From: a virus
Length of the DNA stretch: 36,668 nt
Virus record (IMG/VR): IMGVR_UViG_3300044647_000284
Coordinates: 1 to 36,668 of that record
Reading direction: 5' to 3' (one strand)
The translations under genes were made by a program, and so were the position numbers. Below the pieces are notes generated by a model that had not been told where the DNA came from, did not search any database, and saw only the letters and a list, made by a program, of their open reading frames with translations. The stretch's first letter is position 1. Every line of letters starts with the position of its first letter. Positions 1 through 36,668 of this stretch are shown here, piece after piece.

Positions 1-688
1 CATTGGAAAATGCTCTACCTAGACTTCGAAACCCGCAGCCACTGTGACCTTAAAAAGCACGGCGTCTACAACTACGCCCAACACGCTAGCACCGAGGTGC
101 TGTGCATGTCCTACGCCTTTGACGATGGCGAGGTGCAGACATGGCTACCCAGCCAACCCTTCCCCGATGAAGTGCGCCAGTACACCGGCCTGATCTACGC
201 CCACAACGCGGCCTTCGAGCGCTTGATCTTCTGGTATGTTCTACAGATCGACTTCAAGCTGGAGCAGTTCTACTGCACCGCCTCGCAGGCCCGTGCCAAC
301 TGTGCGCCTGGTAGCCTAGAAGACGCTGGCCGGTTCGCTGGCGCTAGCATGAAGAAAGACCATCGTGGAAGTCAGTTGATCCGGCTGCTGTGCGTGCCGC
401 CGTTCCGCGAGGACGCCGCCCTGATGGCCGAGATGGTGGCCTACTGCGAACAGGACGTGCGCGCCATGCGTGCCATCAGCCAAGCCATGCGGCCACTGTC
501 AGAGCAAGAACTGTCTGACTACCACGTCAACGAGCGCATCAACGACAGGGGCGTGCTGGTAGACGCCCCGCTGTGCGCCGCTGCCGTGCGCTTTGCCGCC
601 GCTGAGACAGAAGAAATCCAGCAGATCGTGGCCGAGGTGACCGAGGGCCAGATCACCAGCGTGCGCTCGCCTAAGATGCGCGAGTGGG
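1..688. repeat. Left copy of imperfect terminal repeat
   Basis: These 688 bases recur at 35981-36668, offset by 35,980. By eye about 44 positions differ (roughly 6 percent). Most changes fall at positions 87-310, and the last 130 bases or so are nearly identical. The repeat starts nine bases before the polymerase start codon and ends where the window ends. The simplest reading is a circular or terminally redundant genome whose assembly ends came from two related strains. Confidence 0.9.
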
Positions 689-1926
689 TGCTTGAGCGCG
701 TAGGCCCAGAGGCCAAGAAGCTGATGTGGACTGGCGAGAAATATTCGATTGACAAGACTGTGCGGGCTAACTTGCTTGCGATGGAGAACCACGATGAGAT
801 TCCGGCCCATGTTGCGGACGTTATTCAATGCGCGGACGACCTCTGGGCGTCTTCGGTTGCGAAATTCAGTCGCCTTGAACAGCTTGCCGATGAGGAGGAT
901 CACCGAGTCCGAGGCGCTTTCGTTTTTGCTGGAGGGTCTGCCACCGGACGTGCATCAAGCTATGGCGCACAGGTTCACAACTTTACCCGCAAATGCGCCA
1001 AAGACCCTGATGAAGTACGCAACGCTATGGTGCGCGGACACACAATCACACCAAGATTTGGAAGACGCATTACGGATGTTCTCAAGGGAATGCTCCGGCC
1101 CTCACTGATAGCCAAGCCTGGGCATGTGCTGATCGCCTACGACTGGTCGGCCATCGAAGGCCGTGTGCATCCGTGGCTGTCCAAGTGCGCCGCCGGCGAG
1201 GCCAAGCTGGACGTGTTCCGCTCCGGCCTTGACCCGTACAAAGTCAATGCCACGGCCACCTTTCGTGTGCCTTACGCCGAGGTGTCCGGCGATCAGCGCC
1301 AGGTCGGCAAGGTGCAAGAGTTGGCCCTTGGCTTTCTAGGTGGGGCTGGCGCCTTTGAGGTGTTCGGGCGCGCCTACGGCATACACCTGTCCGGCTCAGA
1401 AGTCCAGCGCGCCGTGGACGGCTGGCGTAGGGCAAACCCTTGGGCCATGCAGCACGGCAGCGCCTTGGAGGGCGCATACATGCGCGCCATGCGAAATAAA
1501 AACCATGAATTTAGCGCGGGTCGGGTTACCTACATGTTTGACGGCCAGATGCTCTGGTACAGTCTTCCTTCCGGCAGGGTGCTGTGCTATCCCAACGCCA
1601 AATTCGATGACGAAGGCAATGTGACCTACACCAAAGCTGCTTGGAAACCCGCCGCCGATGCCAAAGAATGGCCGCGCGCCCGTTTATGGCGCGGCTTGGC
1701 TTGCGAGAACATAACGCAGGCCGCAGCCCATGACATCTTGCGCCATTCCCTGCGCCAAATAGATGATGTCGTTCTACATGTACATGATGAGATCGTTGTC
1801 GAGTGCCCAGCCGATCAGGCCGAGGCAGTCGGCGCGCGCATGCACCGCGTCATGTGCGAACCACCAGCTTGGGCCGATGGCCTGCCGCTGGCGGCTGAAG
1901 GTGTGATCACAACAAGGTATTCATGA
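10..1926 (+). CDS. Family A DNA polymerase with 3'-5' exonuclease domain
   Basis: Replicative phage DNA polymerase of the Pol I type. An N-terminal DEDDy 3'-5' exonuclease is visible: ExoI has D5 and E7 in LDFET, ExoII has HNAAFE at 65-70, and ExoIII has YCEQD with Y145 and D149. The polymerase domain shows motif A (YDWSAIEGR, about 377-385), motif B (R..GK...LGFLGG with the lysine near 434) and motif C (HDE, 592-594). At 638 residues it is a compact phage enzyme with no 5' nuclease domain. Its stop overlaps the next start as ATGA, so the two are translationally coupled. Upstream, read through the repeat at the window end, lie a DUF2800-type nuclease and an unknown protein, which makes this the core of a replication operon. 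The Shine-Dalgarno site is weak (GGAAA directly before ATG). Confidence 0.96.
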   Translation: MLYLDFETRSHCDLKKHGVYNYAQHASTEVLCMSYAFDDGEVQTWLPSQPFPDEVRQYTGLIYAHNAAFERLIFWYVLQIDFKLEQFYCTASQARANCAPGSLEDAGRFAGASMKKDHRGSQLIRLLCVPPFREDAALMAEMVAYCEQDVRAMRAISQAMRPLSEQELSDYHVNERINDRGVLVDAPLCAAAVRFAAAETEEIQQIVAEVTEGQITSVRSPKMREWVLERVGPEAKKLMWTGEKYSIDKTVRANLLAMENHDEIPAHVADVIQCADDLWASSVAKFSRLEQLADEEDHRVRGAFVFAGGSATGRASSYGAQVHNFTRKCAKDPDEVRNAMVRGHTITPRFGRRITDVLKGMLRPSLIAKPGHVLIAYDWSAIEGRVHPWLSKCAAGEAKLDVFRSGLDPYKVNATATFRVPYAEVSGDQRQVGKVQELALGFLGGAGAFEVFGRAYGIHLSGSEVQRAVDGWRRANPWAMQHGSALEGAYMRAMRNKNHEFSAGRVTYMFDGQMLWYSLPSGRVLCYPNAKFDDEGNVTYTKAAWKPAADAKEWPRARLWRGLACENITQAAAHDILRHSLRQIDDVVLHVHDEIVVECPADQAEAVGARMHRVMCEPPAWADGLPLAAEGVITTRYS

Positions 1927-32082: not shown

Positions 32083-32221
32083 AAATCTTCCTTTCTAGCT
32101 TAATAATTATTTTGTCCAACCTGGCGACAGTGCGCGTTGCCGCGTTTGCCTCCCTCTGCCGTATCTTCATCTCAGCCAGCGCCGCCTTTAGCTGCGCCTT
32201 CCATAAATCAATCCGTCTCAT
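32060..32221 (-). CDS. Hypothetical coiled-coil protein, 53 aa
   Basis: ATG 32221 overlaps the helicase stop as ATGA and is preferred to an in-frame start inside the helicase gene. The product is one basic amphipathic helix (MRRIDLWKAQLKAALAEMKI, then NAATRTVARLDKIIIKLERK). Its close coupling to the helicase suggests it may be an accessory factor, but no data in the sequence prove this. Confidence 0.7.
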   Translation of the reverse strand: MRRIDLWKAQLKAALAEMKIRQREANAATRTVARLDKIIIKLERKIYDYMAKS

Positions 32222-33507
32222 TTCAAAGCCTCCAATGCAATGTCCGACAATGTGCGCTTGTCGTGTAGCGCGCCCCAAATCTTCTCGTCAACCGTCTTGT
32301 GCGTCAGCATGACGTAGCACCAGACCGCATTCTTCTGGCCGCTGCGGTGCAGCCGCCCGATGGTCTGCTCGTAGAGTTCCAGCGACCACGGCAGCGACAA
32401 GAACACGATGTGGTGCCCGCCGTGCTGGAGGTTGAGGCCGTGTCCGGCTGACTTTGGGTGGACTGCGAGTAGTCTGACTTTGCCGTCATTCCATCGCTCA
32501 ATTGCGCCCACGTCATCAAGGGTCGTAACGGTAAAACGTCGCTTAATCTCGGCGAGTTCTTCTTGGTATTGATAGACAAGGATGGTGTTGGTGTGTTGGT
32601 TTTCATCAAGCAATTCCTCAAGGCGGTCAAATTTATGGCTAGATAGCCAGACGGGGCCATTGTCGGTGTACAGGAACCCGCTTGCCATCTGTTGCAGCTT
32701 CTGCGTCACGACAGCCGCGTTGACCGCCACCACATCATTCAGCACAAAGTCTTTCTTCATGGTGTTGTAGTCCGTCATGTCCATGTCGCAGCGCAACTCG
32801 ACCGTGTACAGCGGCGGCAGCGTGTCTTTGTAGTCGCCTGGCTCCAGTAGGTAGGTGGCCGGCTTGATGCGCTCCATGACTTGCGCCAGTGAGCCAGGGC
32901 GCGGTGCCCAATCGCCGTACTCTTTGTTGATCAGGATGAAGTACTGCTGCTGGAACGCGCCCTTGCTACGGCCAAGCAGCGACTGATCAACAATCTTGCA
33001 CTGGCCGAACACATCCTCCAGCCCGTTGCTGGTAAAGCTGCCGGTCAAGCCCCAGCGGATGTTGATCTTGTCGATGACCTTGTTCAGCGCCTTGAACCTA
33101 GCGCCGGACGGGTTCTTCAGCTTGGTCAACTCGTCGTAGACGATGCCGTCAATGTGCGCTAGGTTCTGTGTCGCTAGCCACTGTATGTTGTCGTAGTTGG
33201 TCACGATGATCTGCGCGCCGCCGCCAAGCGCCGCCTTGCGCTGTGCAGGCGTGCCCACCGCCACGGCCAGCGTCAGACTCGGCGCCCACTTGGGCTGCTC
33301 GATCGGCCACACGTCCGTGCAGACGCGCTTGGGCGCTAGCACTAAGAAGCGCTCGACCACGCGGTCGGCCAGCATCGCCTGCATGGCTGTCAGCGTGATG
33401 GCCGTCTTGCCTGCGCCCACGGGCGCCAAGATCATGGCGCGGTCGTGTTCATACAGGAAGTCAACGGCCTGTTCTTGGTAATCACGCAACTTCATTAAGC
33501 CACCCAT
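32218..33507 (-). CDS. SNF2-type helicase/translocase
   Basis: Superfamily 2 ATPase of SWI2/SNF2 type, probably moving on DNA during replication or recombination. Motif I is APVGAGKT (28-35), motif II is D125-E-L-T in place of the usual DEAH/DEAD, and motif VI is QTIGRLHRSGQ near the C-terminus. At 429 residues it is a minimal phage form. ATG 33507 has AAGGA nine bases upstream; an internal ATG at 33495 gives the common MKLRDYQ start and is an alternative. It overlaps the VRR-NUC gene, a common phage pairing. Confidence 0.92.
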   Translation of the reverse strand: MGGLMKLRDYQEQAVDFLYEHDRAMILAPVGAGKTAITLTAMQAMLADRVVERFLVLAPKRVCTDVWPIEQPKWAPSLTLAVAVGTPAQRKAALGGGAQIIVTNYDNIQWLATQNLAHIDGIVYDELTKLKNPSGARFKALNKVIDKINIRWGLTGSFTSNGLEDVFGQCKIVDQSLLGRSKGAFQQQYFILINKEYGDWAPRPGSLAQVMERIKPATYLLEPGDYKDTLPPLYTVELRCDMDMTDYNTMKKDFVLNDVVAVNAAVVTQKLQQMASGFLYTDNGPVWLSSHKFDRLEELLDENQHTNTILVYQYQEELAEIKRRFTVTTLDDVGAIERWNDGKVRLLAVHPKSAGHGLNLQHGGHHIVFLSLPWSLELYEQTIGRLHRSGQKNAVWCYVMLTHKTVDEKIWGALHDKRTLSDIALEALK

Positions 33508-33757
33508 TGATCTGATCCTTGTTCCACAGGCATACGTAGTTCTGTTTCATGCGTGCCATGTCCGACATGAAAACCTTCTGCAAGGGCGACAGCCTGCCGC
33601 TTTCGGTCTTGACCTCAACGAACCATGTCTGGCCGTTGGGAAAGCAGACGATACGGTCAGCCACACCACGGTGCGCGGGGCTGGTGAATTTGTAGGCCAC
33701 ACCGCCAACCGCTTTGACACGATCAACAAGGTAGCGTTCGATTTGTTTTTCAAGCAT
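33482..33757 (-). CDS. VRR-NUC domain nuclease
   Basis: Small PD-(D/E)XK-fold nuclease of the VRR-NUC family, which often acts on branched DNA. Residues fit the active site: D34 in GVADRIV, E48 and K50 in FVEVKT, and Q60 in LSPLQ. The 91-residue length is that of stand-alone phage forms. It is the first gene of the leftward operon and overlaps the SNF2 helicase, suggesting that the two work together on replication intermediates. Confidence 0.92.
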   Translation of the reverse strand: MLEKQIERYLVDRVKAVGGVAYKFTSPAHRGVADRIVCFPNGQTWFVEVKTESGRLSPLQKVFMSDMARMKQNYVCLWNKDQINGWLNEVA

Positions 33758-33827
33758 GTAAAAAAGTTTAGCACACTTTTATTTTTTATGCTACACTGAA
33801 CGCCTCATCAACTAAATTGGAGTCAAC
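33758..33827. promoter_or_regulatory. Divergent AT-rich promoter region
   Basis: A 70-base AT-rich gap separates the leftward VRR-NUC operon from the rightward replication operon. Rightward -10 candidates are TATGCT (33787-33792) and TACACT (33792-33797), with TTTAGC (33767-33772) as a poor -35. No clear leftward hexamers could be chosen. Both operons must begin here, so promoters are expected, but their exact positions are uncertain. Confidence 0.4.
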
Positions 33828-34028
33828 ATGAAAGCCAAACCTCAAGCCCCCACAACCGTACAAAACTGCCAGTTTTATGGCGTCAAATGGGACGCGGCAG
33901 CAACGGAAGCCGTACAAACCGTTGCTGATGGTTTGCTTGCTAACGCTAAAGCGTTTGACAAGCTCATTGACGTATTTAAATCGCAGAACGTGCAGATTGA
34001 TTGCATGTTAAAGATTGGAGGCAAGTAA
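33828..34028 (+). CDS. Hypothetical phage protein, 66 aa
   Basis: Small protein with a WDAAATEAVQTVADGLLANA helix in the middle and a C-terminal FKSQNVQIDCMLKI strand. I recall this WDAAA..AVQTVA..LL pattern in other uncharacterised phage proteins. It is the first gene of the rightward replication operon, with TTGGAG before ATG. Function unknown. Confidence 0.78.
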   Translation: MKAKPQAPTTVQNCQFYGVKWDAAATEAVQTVADGLLANAKAFDKLIDVFKSQNVQIDCMLKIGGK

Positions 34029-34030
34029 AA

Positions 34031-34186
34031 ATGAAGCTAGAGTTCACCCGCGCCGAGATCGTTAAGATCATCTTGGATCACGTTAACGACATCGCGCCCT
34101 ACGCAAAGTTAGCGTTCATTCAAGACGCTATTTATTTGCCTGAAACTGTTGTCATCATTACGAGAGAAGAAGATGCAGCACAGTAA
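34031..34186 (+). CDS. Hypothetical protein, 51 aa
   Basis: ATG 34031 follows GGAGG at a good distance and starts two bases after the previous stop; it is chosen over an in-frame ATG 30 bases earlier. The product (MKLEFTRAEIVKIILDHVND, then a beta segment YLPETVVIITREED) is a small alpha/beta protein. It overlaps the next gene by 14 bases. No family recognised. Confidence 0.72.
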   Translation: MKLEFTRAEIVKIILDHVNDIAPYAKLAFIQDAIYLPETVVIITREEDAAQ

Positions 34187-35291
34187 CATCGTAGGCGGCT
34201 CGTCAGCCAAGCGCGTAATGGCCTGCCCAGGCTCAGTAGCCTTGGTGCAGAAGATGCCACCCAAGCCCAGCAACAGCCACGCCGACCAAGGCACGCTGCT
34301 ACACAACGCCATCAGCGCCATCTTGGAAGACCAAAGCGTCGACGTGATCGGCACGCAATACAAAGACCAAGTGCTGACGCAAGACCTCTACGACGAGAAG
34401 ATCATGGTGGGCCTGTCGTTGCTCGATGAAGTAGACCCTGAAAAGACAATGGAGTACGAAGTCGAGACGCGTGTCGGCTTTGGTGATCTGCTGCCTGGTG
34501 TCTTTGGCTCGACCGACCTGATGGGCCGCATCGGCAGCAAGGCGATCATTTTGGATTGGAAGTTTGGCACTGGCGTTGCCGTGTCGGCTGAAGAAAACGA
34601 ACAACTGATGTTCTACGCCGCCGCCAGCATGCGTACCCCCGAGGCGCAGTGGGTGTTTGACGGCGCAACAGAGATCGAACTGATCATCATCCAGCCGCCA
34701 GAGATCAAACGCTGGACGACCACACGCGCCCGTATCGAACAGTTTGAGCGTGATCTGGTCAAGGCGGTCACCGCAGCCGGTCTGGCTGACGCGCCCCTGA
34801 AGAACGGCGACCACTGCCGCTGGTGCGCTGCCAAGCCGGTGTGCCCGATAATGACCGGCGCCGTTGACCGCGCTGTTGCGATCAAGATGGATAAGATAGA
34901 CGTTGACAAGATCGGCGCGTATCTACACAATGCAGACCTCTTGGAAACGTGGATCAAAGACCTTCGCGCTTTGGCCGAGGAGATGATGAAGAAGGGCAAG
35001 CCCGTTACGGGCTGGAAGATGGTGCCCAAGCGGGCCACAAGATCGTGGGTGAAGGAGGAGGACGCCAAGGCGGCGCTGCTCCAGCACCTCAAAGAATCTG
35101 AAGTGATCGAGACGAAGTTGGTCAGTCCGGCTGCTGCCGAGAAGCTGCTTAAAGCGCAGAAACTCAAGCTGCCTGACGGGCTGACAGTAGCGATCAGTTC
35201 GGGTAACACAATTGCACCGGAGAGCGATCCTCGGCCAGCAGTTGTACTAATCGGGCAGCAGTTAAACGCCGCTCTTTCTAAAATAATGTAA
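34173..35291 (+). CDS. DUF2800 / Cas4-like PD-(D/E)XK nuclease
   Basis: RecB/Cas4-like exonuclease family common in phage replication modules. From ATG 34173 the core is H44, D115 in GSTDLMG and D128-W-K130 in ILDWKFG, followed by Q144 and Y148. Four cysteines, C18 (MACPGS) and C215, C218, C224 (CRWCAAKPVC), match the layout of an Fe-S cluster formed by one N-terminal and three C-terminal cysteines. Length 372. An earlier in-frame start lacks a ribosome site. It likely processes DNA ends for replication or recombination beside the polymerase. Confidence 0.88.
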   Translation: MQHSNIVGGSSAKRVMACPGSVALVQKMPPKPSNSHADQGTLLHNAISAILEDQSVDVIGTQYKDQVLTQDLYDEKIMVGLSLLDEVDPEKTMEYEVETRVGFGDLLPGVFGSTDLMGRIGSKAIILDWKFGTGVAVSAEENEQLMFYAAASMRTPEAQWVFDGATEIELIIIQPPEIKRWTTTRARIEQFERDLVKAVTAAGLADAPLKNGDHCRWCAAKPVCPIMTGAVDRAVAIKMDKIDVDKIGAYLHNADLLETWIKDLRALAEEMMKKGKPVTGWKMVPKRATRSWVKEEDAKAALLQHLKESEVIETKLVSPAAAEKLLKAQKLKLPDGLTVAISSGNTIAPESDPRPAVVLIGQQLNAALSKIM

Positions 35292-35301
35292 AGGTAAAAT
35301 C

Positions 35302-35949
35302 ATGTCACTGACAGTTTTCAAATCCGCTGGCCTTCCAGCAGTCTCCTCCCTCGCTACTTCCCTGCGTTCTATCGCCACTGATGTTGGCCCAGCCGGCGTT
35401 GTCATCCTCAAGATGGACAAGACCGGCCATTGGGTGTTCGGCGCTGATCAGACCGAAGTCGAAGATGAAGCCACCTGGGCCGTCAATCCTTTCTCGTTTG
35501 TCCACGGCTTTATCGCTTGGGGTGACGGTGAAGTGTTAGGCGAGAAGATGGCAAGCGTAAGCCAGCCACTGCCTGAACTTGACATTGCACCGCCTAGCGC
35601 CAAGAAGGGCTGGGAGACGCAAGTCGGCATGTCGCTCAAGTGCTTGTCTGGTGAAGACAAGGGCATGGAAGCGCGGTTCACCACCACCAGCGTGGGCGGC
35701 AAGCGCGCCGTGCAAGCCTTGGCAGTCGCCTTGGCCGAGCAAGTCGAGAAGGATCAGACCAAGCCAGTGGCTATCATCAAGCTGAAGAAAGACCACTACG
35801 CGCACAAAAGCTACGGCAAGATTTACACGCCAGTGTTTAGCGTGGTTGAGTGGGTTGGTATGGATGCGGATGAAAAGCCCGCAGAGGCTGAAGCTGTACC
35901 CGCTGATGAAGCGCCAGCACCAGCCGGACGCCGCCGCCGCGCAGCGTAA
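35302..35949 (+). CDS. Replication-associated protein of unknown function, 215 aa
   Basis: Lies between the DUF2800-type nuclease and the polymerase, where many phages carry a single-strand DNA-binding protein. The body (1-180) is mixed alpha/beta with strands such as AGVVILKMDKTGHWVFGADQ and VAIIKLKKDHYAHKSYGKIY. The tail is acidic and Pro/Ala-rich, ending in GRRRRAA. An acidic tail after a globular part recalls SSB proteins, but the OB fold is not evident by eye. AAGGTAAAA precedes ATG. Confidence 0.7.
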   Translation: MSLTVFKSAGLPAVSSLATSLRSIATDVGPAGVVILKMDKTGHWVFGADQTEVEDEATWAVNPFSFVHGFIAWGDGEVLGEKMASVSQPLPELDIAPPSAKKGWETQVGMSLKCLSGEDKGMEARFTTTSVGGKRAVQALAVALAEQVEKDQTKPVAIIKLKKDHYAHKSYGKIYTPVFSVVEWVGMDADEKPAEAEAVPADEAPAPAGRRRRAA

Positions 35950-35959
35950 GCCTTTCCTG

Positions 35960-35983
35960 ATGCCCATTCGCAAGAGTGGGCAT
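35960..35983 (+). promoter_or_regulatory. Hairpin before polymerase start
   Basis: ATGCCCA / TGGGCAT inverted repeat with a 10-base loop, ending seven bases before the polymerase ATG at 35990. No T-run follows, so it is not a terminator. Given the weak ribosome site of the polymerase gene, it may limit translation. Confidence 0.45.
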
Positions 35984-36668
35984 TGGAAAATGCTCTACCT
36001 AGACTTCGAAACCCGCAGCCACTGTGACCTTAAAAAGCACGGCGTCTACAACTACGCCCAACACGCATCGACCGAGGTGCTGTGCATGTCCTACGCCTTT
36101 GACGAGGGCGAGGTGCAGACTTGGCTACCCAGCCAGCCGTTCCCGTCTAAAGTCAAAGACTACGCCGGCCTGATCTACGCCCACAACGCGGCCTTTGAGC
36201 GCTTGATCTTCTGGTATGTCTTGCAGATCAACTTCAAGCTGGAACAGTTCTATTGCACCGCCTCGCAGGCCAGAGCCAACTGTGCGCCTGGCTCGCTTGA
36301 GGACGCTGGCCGGTTCGCTGGCGCCAGCATGAAGAAAGACCATCGTGGAAGTCAGTTGATCCGGCTGCTGTGCGTGCCGCCGTTCCGTGAGGACGCCGCC
36401 CTTATGGCCGAGATGGTGGCGTACTGCGAACAGGACGTGCGCGCCATGCGTGCTATCAGCCAAGCCATGCGGCCACTGTCCGATCAAGAACTGTCTGACT
36501 ACCACGTCAACGAGCGCATCAACGACCGTGGCGTGCTGGTGGACGCCCCGCTGTGCGCCGCTGCCGTGCGCTTTGCCGCCGCTGAGACAGAAGAAATCCA
36601 GCAGATCGTGGCCGAGGTGACCGAGGGCCAGATCACCAGCGTGCGCTCGCCTAAGATGCGCGAGTGGG
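35981..36668. repeat. Right copy of imperfect terminal repeat
   Basis: Counterpart of bases 1-688 with about 44 substitutions and no indels. Some changes alter the protein (residues DEVRQ at 53-57 become SKVKD, and there are single changes such as D39E, T59A and D81N). The upstream neighbour here is the 215-aa gene, so this copy shows the true left context of the polymerase. Confidence 0.9.
35990..36668 (+). CDS. DNA polymerase, partial second copy (exonuclease domain only)
   Basis: 226 codons of the same family A polymerase as at 10-1926, cut by the window end. The DEDDy motifs (LDFET, HNAAFE, YCEQD) are all intact and the reading frame is open, so it is not a pseudogene. It most likely continues, in a related strain, as the gene at the window start. 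A real tandem polymerase duplication is less likely but cannot be excluded from one window. Confidence 0.88.
   Translation, partial: MLYLDFETRSHCDLKKHGVYNYAQHASTEVLCMSYAFDEGEVQTWLPSQPFPSKVKDYAGLIYAHNAAFERLIFWYVLQINFKLEQFYCTASQARANCAPGSLEDAGRFAGASMKKDHRGSQLIRLLCVPPFREDAALMAEMVAYCEQDVRAMRAISQAMRPLSDQELSDYHVNERINDRGVLVDAPLCAAAVRFAAAETEEIQQIVAEVTEGQITSVRSPKMREW

Follow-up and report, generated by a model that had tools for sequence, protein, structure and literature searches.

The window considered here, which is the whole of the 36,668-nucleotide IMG/VR virus record IMGVR_UViG_3300044647_000284, opens and closes on the beginning of the same gene, that of a family-A DNA polymerase (polA), and the question posed by this arrangement is whether the phage carries a second, diverged polymerase gene or whether a single locus has been read twice. 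Alignment of the window with itself (BLASTN) gives one non-trivial match, between positions 1–688 and 35981–36668, in which the two copies have the same orientation and are identical at 644 of 688 bases (93.6%) without gaps (E = 0); there is no further long repeat in the window. The overlap begins and ends precisely at the ends of the contig. Its first part, copy A (1..688, + strand), consists of nine upstream bases and codons 1–226 of polA in what is termed here haplotype A, the gene itself (10..1926, + strand; 638 amino acids; PF00476, E = 3.3e-18; phrog_17 DNA polymerase, E = 4.8e-91) being the sole complete polA in the window. Its second part, copy B (35981..36668, + strand), is a truncated and redundant start of the same gene. 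The gene directly upstream of polA (35302..35949, + strand; 215 amino acids), which is weakly similar to a phage nucleotidyltransferase family (phrog_9528, E = 6e-15), is kept by synteny in front of a single polA in the relatives of this phage.

The 44 differences between the copies are confined to copy positions 87–561, 35 of them falling no further along than position 345, such that the overlap starts with an identical run of 86 bp (copy positions 1–86) and finishes with one of exactly 127 bp (copy positions 562–688; window 36542..36668, + strand), which follows the last difference at window position 36541 (copy position 561). The initial annotation had described the terminal overlap as about 94 percent identical, with differences clustered in its first half and fading to identity near the end, and all of this is borne out, as is the replacement of DEVRQ in copy A by SKVKD in copy B, which falls at codons 53–57. 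Third codon positions account for 29 of the 44 differences, and the codon changes are mainly synonymous (25 synonymous and 8 non-synonymous; dN 0.036, dS 0.19), from which it follows that the two copies diverged as functional coding sequences. As to the DEVRQ/SKVKD exchange, it is not a special feature of this pair, since codons 48–60, which lie between the exonuclease-like motifs DFET and AHNAAFE, are variable in all relatives and, in one of them (L006), carry an insertion of 10 residues.

How haplotype A continues can be seen in an independent IMG/VR contig, IMGVR_UViG_3300037520_000413 (L001), which runs from the equivalent of window position 35980 straight into base 1 with no mismatch near the junction. 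This contig is identical to copy A over its full length (688/688) and shows 3 mismatches in total against window positions 32121–35980 joined to 1 to about 17.4 kb; a 123-base probe spanning the junction matches L001 alone. Moreover, the upstream sequence in L001 enters a single complete polA and then continues onward. In other words, the two ends of haplotype A meet at a single polA, which implies a circle of 35,980 bp. The agreement between the two contigs is near perfect for more than 21 kb, but at about 17.5 kb (window position ~17493) it falls off, first to a difference of a few percent and then, after about 19.2 kb, to one of ~12%. The change would mark either the edge of a recombined segment or a chimera in the window or in L001. 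Since L001 departs from the window past ~17.5 kb, it proves the junction and not the whole circle.

Copy B, for its part, is identical over 688/688 bases to two other contigs, IMGVR_UViG_3300034093_002764 (L003) and IMGVR_UViG_3300034122_001329 (L086), which are also the only ones matched by a probe for the SKVKD stretch. The polA genes of these two contigs are identical to each other over 1926 bp and differ from that of haplotype A at 74 sites, and neither contig has the open reading frame that follows polA in A (1923–2624). Judged from these alignments, copy B belongs to a sister strain of A, referred to below as strain B. The passage from one strain to the other can be located closely in the window, which matches A and not B up to position 35920, and B and not A from position 36067 (copy position 87), these two differences flanking a block of 146 bp (35921..36066, + strand) that is the same in both strains. 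In the sequence that precedes 35921, the window is the same as L001, and strain B departs from it at 35920 and, further up, by an indel and many substitutions. The two sides of the join accordingly match different strains: L001 and not L086 upstream, and L003 and L086 but not L001 past 36066. The variable part of the overlap is bounded by blocks common to A and B of 146 bp before it and 131 bp after it, both at least 127 bp long.

Taken together, the ends of the window very probably represent the circular-closure overlap of one family-A polA drawn from two strain haplotypes, which is an ordinary artefact of assembly and not a duplicated gene. The phage genome, whether its DNA is circular or circularly permuted, would then have a circular map that holds a single polA. 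During de Bruijn assembly of short reads, the path would have gone full circle along haplotype A, re-entered polA through the 146-bp block shared by the strains and there taken the branch of strain B, to halt at the 127-mer where that branch rejoins the already used branch A. This proposal implies that both strains were present in the window's own sample, that the contig was presumably produced by metaSPAdes at k = 127, and that the change of path from A to B was made by the assembler. In this regard, a published JGI metaSPAdes protocol uses k = 33, 55, 77, 99 and 127 (PMC10604447), and conserved regions longer than k are known to be places where de Bruijn assemblers fragment or form inter-strain chimeras (PMC11443906). 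The claim in the initial annotation of two co-occurring strains therefore stands as far as the strains themselves are concerned, A being found in L001 and B in L003 and L086, with their co-occurrence in this particular sample a probable corollary.

The point at which the contig stops is telling. Strain B stays identical to A through copy position 692, beyond the end of the contig at 688, and hence the stop lies not where the strains part again but where a shared 127-mer is completed; if the contig could end anywhere along the alignment of A and B polA, a run of exactly 127 bp would arise at 3 of 1826 positions. Set against k, the overlap has an exact final 127 bp, an identity of 93.6% as a whole and a starting run of 86 bp. 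The start of the contig is accordingly without a k signature, its shared prefix being 86 bp and not 127, and the vertex at which A and B fork would be expected 41 bases upstream of base 1. A third strain that might explain the start at base 1 was not found, L001 and the window being alone in having the initial 127 bases of copy A; such a strain, trimming or a gap in coverage might each account for it.

The window resembles the usual product of de Bruijn assembly of a circle, in which the ends overlap by a length k, in that its overlap lies at both ends and includes an exact run of 127 bp, as is also seen in two relatives (G007 and G020). It is unlike that product in that the overlap is imperfect and extends to 688 bp, which it does because the branch of a second strain has been included. 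Similarly, it resembles the inter-strain chimeric contigs described from viral metagenomes (PMC11443906) in having its join within a conserved region longer than k, with flanks from different strains, but differs from them in that the join stands at the closure of the circle and that a single record retains both alleles.

Among the other explanations, the one that survives best, albeit as an improbable one, is that the window contains a natural recombinant, with the upstream sequence of strain A and the polA start of strain B, which circulates beside A, in which case polA alleles would be exchanged between co-infecting strains. Some exchange of this kind is suggested by another relative, L002, the polA of which changes between A-like and B-like states 21 times over 61 informative codons, more than expected from a codon shuffle (P = 0.012), and by positions 790–1140 of polA, where A, B, L002 and L004 have the same DNA sequence, against differences of 4–6% elsewhere in the gene. 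This stretch of ~350 bp (window 799–1150) may reflect either recent exchange or constraint at the nucleotide level; its conservation in other strain pairs also means that the uneven spread of differences in the overlap cannot be taken as proof of recombination between A and B. The combination of A-only upstream sequence with B-only polA, however, is seen in no contig besides the window, and the sole other holders of SKVKD, L003 and L086, carry the upstream differences of B. Moreover, recombination is not required to account for a contig that ends at exactly k = 127. The suggestion in the initial annotation of strains that recombine within polA is thus not needed for the ends, since a switch by the assembler within the 146 bp common to both strains is enough to produce them and is also what the 127-bp stop indicates; what remains of that suggestion is the separate mosaicism in L002, which is weakly indicative of strains that are mosaic within polA and fits natural exchange between them.

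A real tandem duplication of polA within one genome, the second copy having diverged and been cut by the contig end, had been put forward as the less likely option, and both copies are indeed open and in frame. Nevertheless, it has next to nothing in its favour once it is considered that the repeat begins at base 1 and finishes at the last base, that the sequence before copy B is that which leads into the one complete copy A in L001, that copy B is found without a difference in the one polA of a different strain, and that each of the 21 relative records checked (L001 and 20 others) has a single polA. A true terminal redundancy of a linear packaged genome, by direct terminal repeat or headful packaging, can likewise be set aside almost entirely, for although the contig ends of the relatives fall at varied genome positions, as is expected of circular maps in general, those of circularly permuted headful DNA among them, the redundant ends of one molecule are copies that would not differ by 6%, and the overlaps of the relatives are of varied length and position, with a clustering around 127 bp.

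Similar end overlaps occur among these relatives. In one (G015), polA itself is divided between the two ends of the contig, which overlap exactly by 105 bp. The ends of ten further long relative records were also checked, among which exact overlaps are found in G007 and G020 (127 bp each), G004 (145 bp) and G012 (115 bp); the ends of G018 are identical for 126 bp, after which identity breaks, and 3 of the 10 have no end overlap. Two others have imperfect overlaps: that of G009 (L095/L096) is 162 bp long and has an identical run of 126 bp followed by 2 differences, and that of G010 (L097/L098) is 319 bp long and has 13 differences. As the overlaps of the relatives sit at varied places on the gene map, imperfect ends are not a peculiarity of polA. 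The expectation in the initial annotation that the ends of a closed circle overlap exactly holds for several of these relatives but not for G009 and G010, both of which are classed as linear despite their imperfect end overlaps and are probably complete circular maps.

For the record itself, the consequence is that it can be read as a complete circular map of 35,980 bp, where its IMG/VR class is linear, and that its last 688 bases (35981–36668) are to be trimmed, as they otherwise give rise to a false second polymerase start. More generally, given at least two relatives with imperfect overlaps, a test for end repeats that relies on exact matching misses complete phage genomes in strain-rich samples.

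The gene that follows polA in haplotype A deserves separate mention. It is a PAPS-reductase-like gene (1923–2624; PF01507, phrog_424), the start of which overlaps the 3' end of polA in the window and in L001 and L002, and which is absent from this position in L003 and most relatives. The presence of an inserted gene after polA brought into consideration co-conversion of the adjacent sequence by a homing endonuclease, a possibility that is rejected in that 1923–2624 matches phosphoadenosine phosphosulfate reductase families and not an endonuclease. In six relatives (L021, L043, L052, L067, L070 and L079) the gene is found instead just upstream of polA, with a DNA identity of 82–84%, the genes that neighbour it in those relatives being mostly about 65–83% identical. 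It has the appearance of a moving cargo gene.
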